Origin: a virus
DNA length: 20,127 nt
Virus record (IMG/VR): IMGVR_UViG_3300035180_000401
Coordinates: 1-20,127 of that record
Strand: one strand, 5' to 3'
The notes beneath the pieces are model-generated. The model was not told the origin of the DNA and made no database searches. It was given only the letters and a program-made list of their open reading frames with translations. Below, one piece after another: positions 1,161 through 13,809 of this stretch. Numbering within the stretch: position 1 is the stretch's first letter; every line of letters starts with the position of its first letter. The translations under genes and the position numbers were made by a program.

Positions 1161-3548
1161 TTAAGCACCAAAAGTTGCGCCTGTTCTTGTTATATTGAAA
1201 TCAATGATAATCATTTCAGCAGTTTTTGCGGGTTGTAAATAGATTTCGCCTTTCATTTGATTTCTATCTATAACATCAGGAGTATTATTTGTTTCATCCA
1301 TTACTACTTTGAATGTGTATAATCCTTGTCTTTGTTGAATGTTTTCAAGATATGGATTTACAATGTTCAGAAAACGAAGTCTTGTAGCATTTGTGTTTTG
1401 TTCAAATACCAAGTATTTCGTTGTTGAAGCAATGTATTTCTTAATCTTAATTAACAATCTACGAACATTTATTCTATCAAGAGCAGATGATTTAGCTTGA
1501 AGTGTTTTTTGTCCCCAAGCAACAACGCCTTGACCAACAAATGCAGCAATAGGATTAATTCTGTTTTCATATAAATCGTCTCTTTCAGCTTGTGTTAATC
1601 GTGAATATACTTGTAAAGCACTTGAAATACCACCACGATTAAGACCAGCAGGAGCAAACCATTCTGCTGCCACTCTATCGTTGAAAGCTATTACACCTGC
1701 CATAACAACAGAAGGTGGAACCCACATATATTTGTTATTATTTGAATCAAACACTTTAACCCAAGGATAATATGTTGCCGAGTAATTACTATCAATTGAA
1801 GAAACAACTGATTTAGCTACACTAATTGGTGATGTTAAAGCTGTCACGTCGAATAAAAAGAATGTATCTTGACGATCTTCACACATTGTATTAGCATATG
1901 TTAATACTGAACCGTGAAGTTCCATATTCAAACCAGGAATTACTAACATATTAATGTCAAATTCATCAGGATTAGATACTGCATCAATTGCTTTTCTAAA
2001 CATCAATGTTCCTGTTGATGTTGGAGAAGAACAGTCAAATCCCATTACATTAGTAGCAGTAATATCGTCACCCATTTTGCGTGTTATTGTTGGATCAATA
2101 CCGTCAAAACCACCTACAAATGGAACAGAAAATTTTCTACTCTTTAAAGGAACTTGTGTTATTGATAGACCAGGTATAAATGGTACTTCGTTTCCAGCAC
2201 CATCATTATGTTTACAATTTTCAAGTGAGAAAGCCGGAGATGCATCTATTGTTCCCACTGTTACCATTGTTATAGGTTTTAATATTACAGACATGTTACC
2301 TTCATTTGTAAAGTCAAATCCTAAATAAGAACGATAGTTCCAATCGCCTGTGTTTGTCTTTTGAGTTGTTATAGTTACCAAATCAGGGAAATTCATTACA
2401 TTATTAACAGCGTAATCAATTGCAGCATATCCGAAAGGAAGAGCGGCAGCAGGAATATCACCATCAGCCATTTGTACTCTAACATATTTTGAATTATTTG
2501 GGAAATCACCGTGAATTACTAATTTGCTACCTTCATCTGTTGTTACAAATTCTACCCACTGATCACCAATCTTTCTTGCAATATAATTTGGTGATGTTGG
2601 GTCTAATGTACAACCTGTGAATGTTTCTAATACATTTGGGCGAGCATCCGTGTCATCAATTGCTCTAACTAATACTGTGAATGTTCCGTATTTTACCGAA
2701 TTAGGTAATTCTGATGGATCTTTTACATCTTCAATAGAAATCTTAACATCGCCAGCGCCGTGATTGAATGTTTCAAAATAAAATAAACTCAATTGTTCGC
2801 CATTAATTGTTTGAGATTTTATATAAGGTGTAGATGATAATTGATATTGGTCAGGATCTGTTGGAGATGCTTTGAATACATCAATACCGTCATTAACAAC
2901 TGCCACACTCATAGATGTAAAAGCAGCATTTACACCAAGAGATGAAGATGCATACCATTTTGTATAAAAATCACTTATCTTTGATTCAAATTCATTATAC
3001 ACATAGAAAAATTGACTTCCACCAGGAGTCTTACCGAATACATTTGTAATATAGTTTGGACTTGATGGATTGTATGATAATGAATAAGAATAACTACCGC
3101 TAGATAATGTAAAATCCATTGACATTGTCGCGAATGTTATTTTCCAATCATCTGTTACATTATTAACACTTGTTACAGGAGCTAATGCAATAAGAGCTGT
3201 TAAATCATATCCTGAAATAGCTGATCCTGTTGATGATAACGCGGATAATTTCGCATTTAATGTTAAAACGTCAGATTTGTATCCTTCTGCACCAGCTACC
3301 CTTACAATCGTAGCACGACCAGAATTTGCTAAATAATTTTTCACTGTGTAAGGTACATAGCTTTTTCCGTCAGCATCACCGAATTTGTTTACGAAGTCAT
3401 TGTAGTCAGTTACGAGTGTTGGAATGAAAGCAGGACCCTTTGGTGTCGGACCGATAATAGCGGCGCCGATTTCAGAAATTCCTTGTGGTAAAAACGAAAG
3501 GTCATTTTCTCTCGTGAACACACCAGGACTAACAATTTTTTCTGCCAT
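1161..3548 (-). CDS. Contractile tail sheath protein (T4 gp18-like)
   Basis: This 795-aa protein forms the contractile outer tube of a myovirus tail. The N-terminus (MAEKIVSPGVFTRENDLSF...GAAIIGPTPKGPAF) is the classic sheath opening: a SPGV motif, then a GxTPKGP turn, then a VTDYNDFVNKFG stretch. The C-terminal half has the conserved sheath core, including PFVGGFDGIDP near the middle, AGLNRGG, and an ending of β-strands with EIYLQPAKTAEMIIIDFNI. That tail region makes the inter-subunit mesh in known sheaths. At 795 residues it is longer than T4 gp18 (659), and residues of about 100-330 probably include inserted outer domains. A good AGGAG site precedes the ATG at 3548. A strong terminator follows it, so it is the last gene of this operon. 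In T4 the tail tube gene comes next; here a homing-endonuclease-like gene does. Confidence 0.95.
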   Translation of the reverse strand: MAEKIVSPGVFTRENDLSFLPQGISEIGAAIIGPTPKGPAFIPTLVTDYNDFVNKFGDADGKSYVPYTVKNYLANSGRATIVRVAGAEGYKSDVLTLNAKLSALSSTGSAISGYDLTALIALAPVTSVNNVTDDWKITFATMSMDFTLSSGSYSYSLSYNPSSPNYITNVFGKTPGGSQFFYVYNEFESKISDFYTKWYASSSLGVNAAFTSMSVAVVNDGIDVFKASPTDPDQYQLSSTPYIKSQTINGEQLSLFYFETFNHGAGDVKISIEDVKDPSELPNSVKYGTFTVLVRAIDDTDARPNVLETFTGCTLDPTSPNYIARKIGDQWVEFVTTDEGSKLVIHGDFPNNSKYVRVQMADGDIPAAALPFGYAAIDYAVNNVMNFPDLVTITTQKTNTGDWNYRSYLGFDFTNEGNMSVILKPITMVTVGTIDASPAFSLENCKHNDGAGNEVPFIPGLSITQVPLKSRKFSVPFVGGFDGIDPTITRKMGDDITATNVMGFDCSSPTSTGTLMFRKAIDAVSNPDEFDINMLVIPGLNMELHGSVLTYANTMCEDRQDTFFLFDVTALTSPISVAKSVVSSIDSNYSATYYPWVKVFDSNNNKYMWVPPSVVMAGVIAFNDRVAAEWFAPAGLNRGGISSALQVYSRLTQAERDDLYENRINPIAAFVGQGVVAWGQKTLQAKSSALDRINVRRLLIKIKKYIASTTKYLVFEQNTNATRLRFLNIVNPYLENIQQRQGLYTFKVVMDETNNTPDVIDRNQMKGEIYLQPAKTAEMIIIDFNITRTGATFGA

Positions 3549-3587
3549 ATTTTTTCTCCTGTTACGTTATTATTGTTTTAAAAAATT

Positions 3588-3872
3588 TTATTGTTTTACT
3601 TGTTCAGCAGGTCTGTCAGTTGGTACAGTCGGACTGAAAATTCCTGTTACTGGATCAACAACACCATTTCCATACTTATCACTTAGTCTTTTAGCAAACT
3701 CTCTTTGAATTTCCATATTTTTAAGATACTCCAACTCAGTTTCTTTTCTCGATAAATCCAAATTGATTCTGTTAATTTCTAATTGACCCAATTTTATTAG
3801 TATATCATTGATGTTTTGCTGGATATTTCTTAATTCAACTAATTCATCATCTGTAAACTTAATCTCAGCCAT
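3588..3872 (-). CDS. Small coiled-coil protein next to the tail sheath gene
   Basis: I do not recognise a named family for this 94-aa protein. Residues of about 8-65 are a highly charged heptad-like helix (ELVELRNIQQNINDILIKLG and onward), followed by a Pro/Gly-rich tail (GNGVVDPVTGIF...). The start is well supported by AGGAGG eight bases before the ATG. It lies between the muramidase and the sheath gene, 39 bp before the sheath start, so it is co-transcribed with a late structural gene. A tail-assembly or structural accessory role is a guess from position only. Confidence 0.75.
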   Translation of the reverse strand: MAEIKFTDDELVELRNIQQNINDILIKLGQLEINRINLDLSRKETELEYLKNMEIQREFAKRLSDKYGNGVVDPVTGIFSPTVPTDRPAEQVKQ

Positions 3873-7811: not shown

Positions 7812-10691
7812 TCAGGAAATGAATTTATTTATCAATTCCTCTAAATCATCATCATTTATTGAGTGAATTTCACCATCCGTAGCAGAACTCGTTATTTTTC
7901 GTTTTCGGTCTATCAATTCTAACACATATTCATCTATCGTATCTACTCCATAAAAATAATGACAATTTACAAAGTTCTTCTGACCTATTCTATGACATCT
8001 ATCTTCCGCCTGATCGTGTACCGCTGATGTCCACCCAAACTCGATAAACGCTACATTTGAAGCGGCAGTCAATGTATGACCAACTCCAGCAGCATCAATA
8101 GCACCTATAAACAACTTAATCTTCGAATCAGTTTGAAACTTATCAACAGCATCTTGTTTGTGTTTATTACTACTACCACCAACTATATGTACACTAATAT
8201 CTTTATATTCTTCTATCAATTCCTGATATATTTCTTTATGCGTAGCAAATATAACAAGTTTCTCACCACTTTGAATAAAATTATCAACAAATTCTTTGAA
8301 TTTTGCTAATTTACCTCTTGCACACAATTGTTTCAAATATTCTATTTTTACAAGTGTTTCAGCTTTTTTAGCTCCCAACAACTTTTTATTTATTCTTCGT
8401 GTTATTATAGATTTTTTTTGAGAATCCGCTAATTGTTTTAATTTATTATCACTCAGAACTTCTCCAGATATCTTCGGTTTTAATGTCAATGATAACCATT
8501 TAATCAAATCTTCTTTAGCTTCATCATAATCTTGACGATTATCAATTTTAAGAGGAATCATACTTCTTTGCTTTTCCGGCAATTCTGATAATACATCGGA
8601 TTTTCTTCTTCTAATAAAACAAGTTTCTACTAATTTATCATGTAATTCCCTAAGATTAGAAAATCCAGATAAATCCCATCCGAAACGACCTTCCTTCGCA
8701 TCGCAATATTTTTTAGCATATGTCCAGAAACCGCCCATTGATTCCAACCTATCTAATATAACCAATTGTGGTATTAATTCAGATGGTCTATTAATCATTG
8801 GTGTTCCTGATAAAGCAAATCTGTATCGTATCTCTTTTGCCAACTCTCGAACTGCTATTGTTCTGGAACTTTTTCTATTTCTGCAATAATGGGACTCATC
8901 AATAATAATAGATTTAAATTTCTTTAATTTTAAGAAATCTTTATGAAACACAGATTGAAAATTATCTTCTTTTTCTTCAGGGTCATTAGATTCTCGTTCA
9001 TCTGAATAATCATCATCATCATCGTTAACATCTTTTTTCTTATTTTTATCGCGAGCTAAAATATCATAATTTATAATAACAAAATCTCCGGAATAATCTG
9101 GCTCGATATAGTCTATAATATTTCCATTATCATCTTTAACGTCTTTTATCAAACCTTCTATAACATTTGGTCTTCTGTCTGTCCACATCTTAACTTCTTT
9201 TTCCCAATTAAGTTTCAATGATGCTGGTGTAATAACAAGGCATGGATAGGCATTTAATTTTTCAACAGCAGCTATGGCTTGACATGTATTATGCGTCAGA
9301 ATACAATCATCCGTCACATACAATTGATTGTCTGCAGATGTTGAAATGCAACGAGTTTCTTCTTTTCCTATATATTTAACAGATTTAAATGCTCTATAAG
9401 GACCATTAATATCAGCATTACATCTATTCAATTTTCTTTTCAATCTGAACGGTGTTATTTCTGCGGGCAATTTTATTCTTAATGTATATGAAACTAATCC
9501 TTTCTTATTTACATCGTTATGCCAAAATGTTGGCGTTTTAAATAATTCCTTTGCCGTACCACCTAAAGACTGAACTAAAAATTTTACATCTTCCTTTAAT
9601 TGATATGATGATGTATAATATTCTATAGTACTTCCATCCTCTGTTATTAATCCATGTGTATCAAGTAGTCCTTGCAACAAAGATTCTCGGAATGAAATTG
9701 AATTATACATATAATCGTGTGGAATGAATTTACATTCCGATTTATGTCCAAATAATTTCAATTTATTTAAACTTTGTTTTAATTTATTTTTTTGTCTTCC
9801 GGGTTTCTTATTTTTTATAATATAATTTTGTTTATCTTTCTGTTTAATGTATAAACTATCATCTATTGTCTTTTTAAGATTCTCTATTATTTCATCATCA
9901 TTTGATGATATTGTTACACATTTTGTTATATCTCCATCTCCTAAAATGACTCCCATCAAATAAGGATCTATTTCAACATCAATATGATTAAAATGTATAG
10001 GTTTTATCATGGGAATAAACCACTTATTATTACCATCTTCTGTGTATAAATCATCTTTAAATTCTTTTAATTCTTTAGTAACAAATCCAAAATTTTTAGA
10101 CCTGTTATATATGGGTTGTATATTCCATAAATGTTCATCACATGTAATAGTCTTAGACCCGTCATTAAAAATAACCTCATATACATCTCTAATACCCCTA
10201 TCAAATACTCCAGTAACAATAGATTCTAATCCATTCGAATTTATTATAGTATCTCCAACAGATATGTCTCCCATTTTTTTCCAACCTGTTGGTGTTAATA
10301 TTTTGGAATCTAAAGTTTGAGCTTTTCCTAAGCCCATTTCATCTGCAATAAAACATCGTTCAAAACGAATGGCCTTTGCAACTCCAATCTTTTGGAAATC
10401 TCGAAGTGTAAGTTTTAAGGATGGTATACTGATGTTTTCATCTATAGGTTTTTTAAGTTTTTCTATGTATGATTGTACTTCTGCGTGTAGAACAAAACCA
10501 AATTCATCCGCAAAACGTATAACAGGACCTACCGTTGTGTGGTCGGCCCTAACATACCACGCTTTTGTTTCTTTGTCGAATTTTCGTTGAGGAATCTTTT
10601 TAATTGCATCTACTATGTGAGGTCGATATTCGAACATAACCACAAAAAAAACATTATTTTTATCATCTGAAGTTAAATATATTTCTCTCAT
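7812..10691 (-). CDS. SNF2-family DNA-dependent ATPase/helicase containing an intein
   Basis: The product is 959 aa: a 614-aa SNF2-type motor plus a 345-aa intein at residues 124-468. Extein motifs are clear: Walker A DEMGLGK (117-123) continuing as T469, motif II DESH (598-601), motif III SGTP (628-631) and motif VI DQAEDRCHRIGQ (893-904). The last is diagnostic for SNF2 proteins and close to the SMARCAL1-like subgroup. The N-terminal 80 residues (IPQRKFDKETKAWYV...) resemble the small substrate-binding module before the motor in such proteins. An acidic Asp-rich stretch (about 553-578) is inserted between motifs Ia and II. The likely job is ATP-driven remodelling of DNA in replication or recombination, similar to T4 UvsW. 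The start at 10691 has only AGGAT as a site. The gene follows the kinase gene after a 59-bp spacer and ends at a terminator. Confidence 0.92.
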   Translation of the reverse strand: MREIYLTSDDKNNVFFVVMFEYRPHIVDAIKKIPQRKFDKETKAWYVRADHTTVGPVIRFADEFGFVLHAEVQSYIEKLKKPIDENISIPSLKLTLRDFQKIGVAKAIRFERCFIADEMGLGKAQTLDSKILTPTGWKKMGDISVGDTIINSNGLESIVTGVFDRGIRDVYEVIFNDGSKTITCDEHLWNIQPIYNRSKNFGFVTKELKEFKDDLYTEDGNNKWFIPMIKPIHFNHIDVEIDPYLMGVILGDGDITKCVTISSNDDEIIENLKKTIDDSLYIKQKDKQNYIIKNKKPGRQKNKLKQSLNKLKLFGHKSECKFIPHDYMYNSISFRESLLQGLLDTHGLITEDGSTIEYYTSSYQLKEDVKFLVQSLGGTAKELFKTPTFWHNDVNKKGLVSYTLRIKLPAEITPFRLKRKLNRCNADINGPYRAFKSVKYIGKEETRCISTSADNQLYVTDDCILTHNTCQAIAAVEKLNAYPCLVITPASLKLNWEKEVKMWTDRRPNVIEGLIKDVKDDNGNIIDYIEPDYSGDFVIINYDILARDKNKKKDVNDDDDDYSDERESNDPEEKEDNFQSVFHKDFLKLKKFKSIIIDESHYCRNRKSSRTIAVRELAKEIRYRFALSGTPMINRPSELIPQLVILDRLESMGGFWTYAKKYCDAKEGRFGWDLSGFSNLRELHDKLVETCFIRRRKSDVLSELPEKQRSMIPLKIDNRQDYDEAKEDLIKWLSLTLKPKISGEVLSDNKLKQLADSQKKSIITRRINKKLLGAKKAETLVKIEYLKQLCARGKLAKFKEFVDNFIQSGEKLVIFATHKEIYQELIEEYKDISVHIVGGSSNKHKQDAVDKFQTDSKIKLFIGAIDAAGVGHTLTAASNVAFIEFGWTSAVHDQAEDRCHRIGQKNFVNCHYFYGVDTIDEYVLELIDRKRKITSSATDGEIHSINDDDLEELINKFIS
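9288..10322 (-). mobile_element. Class 3-type intein with LAGLIDADG homing endonuclease domain
   Basis: The 345-aa insert splits the Walker A motif GLGK|T. It starts AQTLDSKILTPTGW (A1) and ends DDCILTHN before T+1, typical block A and block G with terminal His-Asn. Block B reads TCDEHLWN, with His187 and Trp189 (protein numbering). Block F begins around RCISTSADNQLYV with Cys448. Block G has Thr466. An Ala at position 1 together with Trp B:12, Cys F:4 and Thr G:5 is the WCT signature of class 3 inteins, in which the block F Cys starts splicing in place of residue 1. The endonuclease has LMGVILGDGDI (245-255) and LLQGLLDTHG (338-347) as its two LAGLIDADG helices. Both acidic positions look retained, so homing activity is plausible. 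Confidence 0.92.
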
Positions 10692-11727: not shown

Positions 11728-12338
11728 AAAGCGTCTCCATTCTGTTTTAATTTTTCAGCCAATTCTTTAAATTGTTCTGAACTTAATATTTTTTGACCTT
11801 TACCAGGATTATCAGCAAAAGGAATGGTATCTAAGTAATATTTATTTGTTTGAGGAAGCATTGCCACATATTCTTTAGGATCTGCGTCTCGTCTTAATCG
11901 TAACCAAGCCACAGGTATTCTACCTTTACCCGGAATTTGTTTTCTAATAGGATAAAAATAAGGCATAGCTGCTTTAAATTTCTTTTCTTCTTCAAATTTC
12001 TTTTCTGCCATATCAATTTGTTTCGGAGTCATATCGGCTCCAACATATTTGTATATTGCAGCACTTCTAAAAGGAACTTCAGGAACAACCTTCTCAAAAT
12101 CATTATTTTTATTACTAAAATATCTTATCAAACGAGCGTAATTGTTTCTAACATCGTCATTTGTTAAACCAAGAGCATCCGCAATATCTGATATTGATAT
12201 ATATCCGCCCAACTTTTTAGCCAGATTTATGACGAATTGTCTCTGAGTTCCTTCGCCGTGAATGTTATCTTCTTTTATTTTAGAAGTCATATCTTGTAAA
12301 ACTTCTTTAATTAAACTTATTAATTCAGATTTTTTCAT
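11724..12338 (-). CDS. Helix-turn-helix protein with capsid-targeting-like leader
   Basis: This 204-aa protein opens with MKKSELISLIKEVLQDM, whose candidate cleavage is after IKE (residue 12). Residues of about 31-75 (TQRQFVINLAKKLG, then ISISDIADALGLTNDDVRNN) look like a winged or tri-helical helix-turn-helix. The rest is rich in Lys, Pro and aromatics (YFYPIRKQIPGKGRIPVAW...) and is not recognised. The start overlaps the end of the CCA/poly(A) polymerase gene by 14 bp, with AAGGAGAG as the site. If the leader is removed in the head, the product would be a DNA-binding protein delivered with the genome. A regulator made in the cell is the alternative. Confidence 0.8.
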   Translation of the reverse strand: MKKSELISLIKEVLQDMTSKIKEDNIHGEGTQRQFVINLAKKLGGYISISDIADALGLTNDDVRNNYARLIRYFSNKNNDFEKVVPEVPFRSAAIYKYVGADMTPKQIDMAEKKFEEEKKFKAAMPYFYPIRKQIPGKGRIPVAWLRLRRDADPKEYVAMLPQTNKYYLDTIPFADNPGKGQKILSSEQFKELAEKLKQNGDAL

Positions 12339-13809
12339 TCGTTCTCTCCTTATTTAATTGTTCATACATTTGTTTTAATAAAGATTCTATTTCCTGGTCA
12401 CTCATTGATAATATTTTATCAGGGTCTTCTAAAAAATAATCTTCAAAAATAGATAACATTTTACCCACATCTTTACCAGGTTTCATATTAAATAATCTCA
12501 TAATCATATTACCATCAACAGGCATTTTAGTTTTAGCAGTAAATTTACCAAGATTTTTTATTCTATCTCTAATAATATCAATTTGTTTTTCAAGATTGTG
12601 TGTCCATCCTATTGGTCCGTGAGATTTATTATCAGCATCAATAACATCTAAAGTATCTTCCAAATTATCTCCCAAATCTTTAACCAATTTTCTAAATACC
12701 TTATCACGTATTTTAGAAACATCGTTGCCCATATCTTTAGTTCTCATATGTTGACCCACTATAACAGCAACTTTATCTTGTAATGCGACAGGATATTTCA
12801 ATCGTTTCAAAATATCCCTTGACATCGTAGCAGACACTTCTTCGTGATTATAGAAATGAACGCCTTTTTCATCATCAGTTCTTGTTTTTACTTTACCGAT
12901 GTCATGAAGTAATGCGCCCAATCGTGTTTCCAATTTAGCAGGCGTTTTTTTCAATACTTCTAATGTATGATTCAAAGCATCCCAAGCGTGATAACGATTT
13001 TGTGTCATACCTCTCAATCCATATAATTCAGGAATAACATATTTCATAAGACCAGTTTCAATCATTATTCTAATACCTTCATCAGGAGTATTACTTAATA
13101 ATATTTTATTCAATTCTTCTTGTTTTCTTTCTGCCGAAATAAATTCAAGCATTTTAGCATTCTTTCTTAATGATTCTATCATATCTTTCGACAATTCCCA
13201 ACCGTATCGTGTAGAAAATCGTATAACTCTTAACATTCGTAACGGATCTTCTTTAAATATAATATCAGAATCTATCGGAGTTCTAATAACTCTATTCTTA
13301 ATATCATCAATACCTTTGCCTGTGAGGTCTAGTATTTTATGATTGGATATGTCATATATCAATGAGTTTATTGTTAAATCTCGGCGTTCGACATCTTGTT
13401 CAATAGTTCCAAAATCAACTTCTGGTTTTCTATCACCATCAGTATATTTTTCTTTTCTTGTCATGACACACTCGATATCCAAACCAGATAAATCAACTCC
13501 ATTATATTTAACTCCTCTCAAATTAAACTTCGCAGTTCCAAATCTTTTAAAAACCACAGGATTTATATCTTTTTTAAATACTCCGGATTTTTTTGTAATG
13601 AAATTTGCAAGTTTTATTCCGCCTTCAGGAAGAGCAACTGTTATATCAATATCTTTTGATTTTTTACCCATTACCATATCACGTACATATCCTCCAGCCA
13701 CATAGGTTTTTCCAGCAAATTCAGTATTTTTTATCAACTCTCCAATGTAATCAATCGCATTTTCTTCTTTAGTTTTTGATTCTAACAATATATCTTTTAA
13801 TTTTATCAT
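12325..13809 (-). CDS. CCA-adding / poly(A) polymerase family nucleotidyltransferase with HD domain and leader peptide
   Basis: This 494-aa enzyme belongs to the class II CCA-adding/poly(A)-polymerase family, which adds nucleotides to RNA 3' ends. Visible motifs are GGYVRD (39-44), catalytic DID (53-55), a third acidic strand at LDIE (110-113), the base-selecting RRDLTINSL (142-150), DPLRMLR (188-194) and ERKQEEL (227-233). A C-terminal HD phosphohydrolase-type domain follows (His274, HD at 302-303, further His/Asp). Such a fusion occurs in bacterial CCA enzymes that also hydrolyse 2',3'-cyclic phosphates or 2'-phosphates. The protein starts MIKLKDILLE-SKTKEE, a leader ending in LLE ahead of the enzyme domain. 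Its ribosome site is weak (GGAAATC), and a 50-bp spacer separates it from the kinase-like gene. CCA repair versus poly(A) synthesis cannot be decided by eye. Confidence 0.92.
   Translation of the reverse strand: MIKLKDILLESKTKEENAIDYIGELIKNTEFAGKTYVAGGYVRDMVMGKKSKDIDITVALPEGGIKLANFITKKSGVFKKDINPVVFKRFGTAKFNLRGVKYNGVDLSGLDIECVMTRKEKYTDGDRKPEVDFGTIEQDVERRDLTINSLIYDISNHKILDLTGKGIDDIKNRVIRTPIDSDIIFKEDPLRMLRVIRFSTRYGWELSKDMIESLRKNAKMLEFISAERKQEELNKILLSNTPDEGIRIMIETGLMKYVIPELYGLRGMTQNRYHAWDALNHTLEVLKKTPAKLETRLGALLHDIGKVKTRTDDEKGVHFYNHEEVSATMSRDILKRLKYPVALQDKVAVIVGQHMRTKDMGNDVSKIRDKVFRKLVKDLGDNLEDTLDVIDADNKSHGPIGWTHNLEKQIDIIRDRIKNLGKFTAKTKMPVDGNMIMRLFNMKPGKDVGKMLSIFEDYFLEDPDKILSMSDQEIESLLKQMYEQLNKERTNEKI

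Follow-up and report, generated by a model that had tools for sequence, protein, structure and literature searches.

The chemistry of class 3 inteins has been established for other members of the class (PMC5222942, PMC6195587, PMC7891396; also PMC3196547). In the part of the literature covered by PMC3196547, the Deinococcus radiodurans Snf2 intein (Brace et al. 2010) is described as an experimentally studied class 3 intein in an SNF2-family host. The intein analyzed here comes from a 20,127-base uncultivated virus record of 30.6% G+C (the window, taken at its full length), and resembles the Deinococcus element in both mechanism class and host family. The latter is bacterial, not phage-borne, and the likeness concerns these two traits. 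The class 3 inteins Mycobacterium smegmatis DnaBi1 (6bs8) and M. chimaera DnaB1 (6rix) share the WCT triplet with the window intein, and the splicing domains superpose at 1.4–2.0 Å over 123–128 residues. Unlike the window intein, however, these are mini-inteins without an endonuclease, reside in DnaB, and are 26–27% identical to it. Block B of DnaBi1 also differs, reading DxxH (PMC6195587) where the window has CDEH.

Closer relatives were found in sequence records. The Hymenobacter artigasi SNF2 Walker A intein and the SNF2 intein of the uncultured huge phage LR756508 carry the class 3 signature at the same K/T site (the slash marks the insertion point), and the former is the nearest tree neighbor of the window intein. 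Both are approximately 40% identical to it, but retain the Asp of the second LAGLIDADG motif. The helicase inteins of jumbo phages (PhiPA3 gp233, phiHQ, Serratia BUCT660, and FishSpeaker) also display the class 3 signature at a P-loop K/T junction, with 35–39% identity, and the CDEH sequence recurs in PhiPA3 and phiHQ. Their host helicases align with the window protein mainly over the intein, and these inteins likewise retain the second catalytic Asp. Our analysis indicates that the window very probably encodes a LAGLIDADG-containing class 3 intein, located at the Walker A K/T junction of a phage SNF2-type ATPase, and that its endonuclease is probably inactive.

The interrupted SNF2 gene

Pfam and PHROG profiles detected phage genes on the fragment, for example those for a tail sheath, an endolysin, and a tRNA nucleotidyltransferase. 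The tail sheath protein (1161–3548, minus strand) is long (795 aa), and its Pfam sheath domains are confined to the C-terminal third (residues 520–787). The phage-encoded tRNA nucleotidyltransferase (12325–13809, minus strand) is of the CCA-adding type with an HD domain; a search for tRNA genes across the 20,127-base fragment found none. The intein-containing precursor matched Pfam SNF2-rel_dom (E = 6.4e-24) and Helicase_C (E = 4e-12), and PHROG 62, DNA helicase (E = 4.9e-99). The features of the gene and of the splicing domain are the following, in window coordinates.

7812..10691, minus strand: precursor ORF of 959 aa, SNF2-family SF2 ATPase with the intein inside (Pfam, PHROG)
10323..10691, minus strand: N-extein, residues 1–123, ending in ADEMGLGK (gap-free junction against the BS-TP3 homologue)
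9288..10322, minus strand: intein assigned to class 3, 345 aa, in frame, precursor residues 124–468 (translation, alignments, structure match)
10320..10322, minus strand: block A position 1, Ala, no N-terminal nucleophile (Ala in 144/189 relatives)
10125..10142, minus strand: block B, C61-D-E-H64-L-W66, with B:7 Cys, B:10 His, and B:12 Trp (H64 in 189/189, W66 in 186/189, Cys61 in 76/189 relatives)
9348..9350, minus strand: block F position 4, putative catalytic Cys, C325 (invariant in the 71-member alignment A3)
9288..9296, minus strand: block G, T343-H344-N345, positions G:5, G:6, and G:7 (invariant in A1 and A3)
9285..9287, minus strand: Thr +1, predicted C-extein nucleophile, which is the Walker A Thr (Thr +1 in 170/189 relatives)
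7812..9287, minus strand: C-extein, residues 469–959, beginning with T(+1)CQAIA (translation; BS-TP3 alignment)

The intein is inserted between K123 and the Thr of the Walker A sequence GLGK/T. Joining residues 1–123 to 469–959 yields an SNF2-type SF2 ATPase, in which the SNF2-rel domain, Helicase_C, and Walker A are all present according to Pfam and homologue alignment. An IMG/VR search with the host protein returned one weak relative only and no close empty-site allele; therefore, the intein-free helicase of Bacteroides phage BS-TP3 was taken as the empty site. The exteins aligned with it at 34% identity over 589 columns (E = 4e-103), and the junction was free of gaps, with DQPGLGKTLQAIG opposite ADEMGLGK/TCQAIA. 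The closest full-length relative found for the host protein was the SNF2 protein of LR756508 (35.7%). The G+C content is 27.9% for the intein, as against 34.1% for the N-extein and 31.2% for the C-extein coding sequence.

A preliminary description, based on the sequence, had placed the intein at 9288–10322 within the SNF2 P-loop, with Ala as its first residue and Thr at +1. The coordinates proved exact for the 345-aa intein in the minus-strand ORF 7812–10691, translation bore out both residues, and the gap-free K/T junction against BS-TP3 confirmed the site.

Class 3 signature and splicing

The positions A:1, B:10, B:12, F:4, G:5, G:6, G:7, and +1 are occupied by Ala1, H64, W66, C325, T343, H344, N345, and Thr, respectively, Ala1 standing where a Cys, Ser, or Thr nucleophile is lacking. 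Intein residues W66, C325, and T343 correspond to W189, C448, and T466 of the precursor. When phage records were searched with the intein, 717 matched at E ≤ 1e-5, and in 532 of them one place covers at least 80% of the intein; given the 717 records, the match is not due to chance. We compared the window intein with its relatives in three sets: alignment A1 (27 inteins, the window and 26 relatives), alignment A3 (71 diverse members), and a census of the window and 189 relatives. H64, W66, C325, T343, H344, and N345 are invariant in A1. The same holds in A3, except that W66 is conserved in at least 90% of the members. The W, C, and T of the WCT triplet are each present in 186 of the 189 census relatives; the relatives were picked by similarity to the window intein, and this conservation describes family membership and is not an independent test. 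W66 falls in the same column as its counterpart in the M. chimaera DnaB class 3 intein and in 186/189 relatives.

Profile and structure comparisons pointed in the same direction. The A3 profile scored 80.7 bits against gp41-1 with engineered class 3 residues (6riz: C1A, F65W, D107C), while natural gp41-1 (6qaz) obtained 68.0 bits, that is, 12.7 bits less. The AlphaFold model of the intein (pLDDT 96.6, pTM 0.94) displays the HINT fold, a horseshoe of β-strands bringing the N and C termini together, and matches hedgehog 1at0 with Z = 16.5. Among solved inteins without an endonuclease, 6bs8, the M. smegmatis DnaB intein of class 3, matches best (Z = 20.1, 1.4 Å, 123 residues), followed by 6riy and 6rix. 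Among the solved mini-inteins nearest to the model, the class 3 structures 6bs8, 6riy, and 6rix reached Z values of 19.5–20.1 and the class 1 gp41-1 18.4, these being structure scores and not positions in a tree with a class 1 outgroup. The Pfam model Intein_splicing (PF14890) gave no match to the window at E = 0.001; here the curated model overlooks the window intein, and this is not counter-evidence. The WCT signature, from which class 3 had originally been proposed, is upheld by the alignments of 27, 71, and 190 inteins and by the structural match to 6bs8; at the alignment level, W189 and C448 lie on the B:12 and F:4 columns, the placement that had been put forward as a check.

The B:7 position required a small correction of the usual expectation. 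The block B motif had been described as a T-x-x-H altered to C-D-E-H. The letters are right, but the sequence is not unusual: Cys-x-x-His, and not Thr-x-x-His, is the commonest form among the collected relatives (Cys in 76, Asp in 71, and Thr in 11 of 189). Six residues (Cys, Asp, Gly, Ser, Thr, and Asn) occur at B:7 among them, and we dropped CDEH as a new block B chemistry. Characterized class 3 inteins have Gly, Asp, or Ser at this position (PMC7891396). By homology, C61 would lie near the catalytic C325, and an oxidant-formed C61–C325 disulfide might act as a redox switch keeping the ATPase unspliced until reduction. In M. smegmatis DnaBi1, the catalytic Cys enters an intramolecular disulfide, but its partner, Cys48, is located between blocks A and B (PMC6195587), whereas C61 of the window is at B:7; we regard such a switch as a long shot. 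If it did operate, a dead endonuclease would suit an element retained for regulation and not for homing.

Site, residues, predicted fold, and family are taken from the data, and the chemistry of the window intein is modeled on characterized class 3 inteins. C325 of block F, activated by H64 together with T343, would attack the Lys(–1)–Ala1 bond to give the class 3 branched thioester, with W66 in a structural role. The acyl group would then move to the Thr+1 hydroxyl, yielding a second branched ester. Cyclization of N345 with the help of H344 would free the intein, and an O-to-N shift would restore GLGK-TCQA, a working Walker A motif. Because the insert parts the Walker A Lys from the Thr, the SNF2 ATPase is expected to be inactive until splicing.

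Two other readings of the splicing domain have to be weighed against this route. The insert could be a decayed class 3 intein that no longer splices. Such a pseudogene has been described in Arthrobacter FB24 (Arth_1007; PMC3196547), and one endonuclease catalytic residue of the window intein is already gone. Arth_1007, however, lacks both CysF:4 and HisB:10 (PMC3196547), whereas the window intein keeps every splicing residue. Its ORF is open over 959 codons, the SNF2 motifs beside the insert are conserved, and the activity of the host ATPase should be lost if Walker A kept its insert, which makes decay of splicing highly improbable. Alternatively, Thr+1 could attack the N-terminal splice junction directly, as in class 2 inteins, leaving C325 incidental. 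Class 2 inteins likewise have no N-terminal nucleophile, and WCT inteins could in principle take either path (PMC5222942). On the other hand, KlbA genes were the only reported location of class 2 inteins (PMC3196547), the three class 3 inteins tested needed CysF:4 absolutely for splicing (PMC5222942), and C325 is invariant across A3. We find this direct attack scarcely credible, and retain the class 3 route through C325.

Class 3 inteins in SNF2 and other P-loops

The K/T junction of the P-loop has been termed a "classic" intein site (PMC5050341). Apart from the window, the loci collected here include at least 27 with a class 3-type intein across the same K/T junction of an SNF2-like protein, these proteins matching the window exteins at E = 3e-18 or better. 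Phages are among them (LR756508, Brevundimonas phage Domovoi, and Erythrobacter phage EliS-L02), and six loci come from records of bacterial genomes (Hymenobacter, Acidobacteria, Chloroflexi, and Eremiobacterota). The window intein paired with the Hymenobacter SNF2 intein (support 95/84) in a 101-row tree. On well-supported branches of this tree, the SNF2 host label has to change at least six times, in agreement with inteins having moved repeatedly from host to host.

The preliminary description had implied that an SNF2 host was new for class 3, naming phage and DnaB-type examples, and that a LAGLIDADG endonuclease was odd there. Neither implication held. Class 3 is not confined to phage and DnaB-type hosts, since the D. 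radiodurans Snf2 intein, as presented in PMC3196547, already belongs to it, and the 27 SNF2 loci add to this. In a 2020 survey, 82.5% of 1,701 class 3 inteins carried LAGLIDADG motifs (PMC7891396). The window intein is an ordinary addition to a large known family.

Some variants and labels in this family deserve mention. In the SNF2 helicase of Mesorhizobium phage Cp1R7A-A1 (CDS 1549–3786), the family intein appears shortened or degenerate, only residues 4–127 being aligned by BLAST; it is possibly a mini-intein or a decaying intein. In the class 3-type intein of Mycobacterium phage Phrappuccino (2569–3627), Cys replaces Thr at +1, the WCT signature being otherwise canonical. Four RefSeq phage records label intein-bearing helicases or terminases interchangeably as "DarB-like antirestriction", "terminase", and "replicative DNA helicase", and the PHROG terminase, DnaC-like, and primase profiles match the window SNF2 protein over its intein. 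The mixed names look like annotation spread through the shared intein.

The LAGLIDADG domain and the homing cycle

The endonuclease features of the intein are as follows.

9423..9980, minus strand: LAGLIDADG homing endonuclease domain, approximate limits (Pfam LAGLIDADG_3, 4.3e-5; Hom_end, 1.1e-4; whole intein model against the endonuclease-containing PI-SceI, Z = 27.1)
9927..9959, minus strand: first LAGLIDADG motif, LMGVILGDGDI, catalytic Asp D129 kept (aligned with PI-SceI YLLGLWIGDG)
9645..9680, minus strand: second LAGLIDADG motif, LLQGLLDTHGLI, including GLLDTHG, with H223 for the catalytic Asp (aligned with PI-SceI LAGLIDSDG)

The presence of a LAGLIDADG domain, claimed earlier, is confirmed by the Pfam and PI-SceI matches; that the second motif lacks its catalytic Asp had been overlooked. 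Position 223 is encoded by CAT (9654–9656). An active LAGLIDADG enzyme has an acidic catalytic residue in both motifs, and the second motif of the window has His instead. Asp is found at this position in all 26 relatives of A1 and in 187 of the 189 census relatives; the latter figure is biased, the census having been gathered partly with a pattern demanding Asp at position 223, and the A1 count is the fairer one. When IMG/VR was scanned with degenerate DNA for the second motif in its His form, three matches were obtained, none of them an intein. The corresponding scan for the Asp form yielded at least 120 stretches, and an intein relative was encoded in 76 of the 79 loci examined. His at the second catalytic position was absent from every other intein examined.

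Mutating the second LAGLIDADG Asp of PI-SceI abolishes cleavage. Because the second motif of the window intein carries His for this residue, its endonuclease probably has no activity or a reduced one, and the residues for splicing are all present; the comparison points to homology with LAGLIDADG enzymes and does not support an active one. The enzyme might still cleave and the element remain mobile, given that D129 and the remaining fold are intact, and His at a metal-binding position might still allow weak or nicking activity. With H223 aligned to the very Asp that PI-SceI needs, and with no other intein among those examined carrying His there, we consider retained activity unlikely. A sequencing or assembly base error could also explain the His codon, the source being an uncultivated viral fragment.

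On the reading that the endonuclease, which once spread the element, is now inactive, the window copy would have reached the late stage of the homing cycle at which an intein splices without homing. Its intact splicing residues, combined with an apparently lost endonuclease Asp, make it a neat illustration of how inteins decay in that cycle. For the family, it is one more case of a class 3 intein settled in Walker A, as others are in ATPases of phages and bacteria, and it leaves the accepted picture unchanged.
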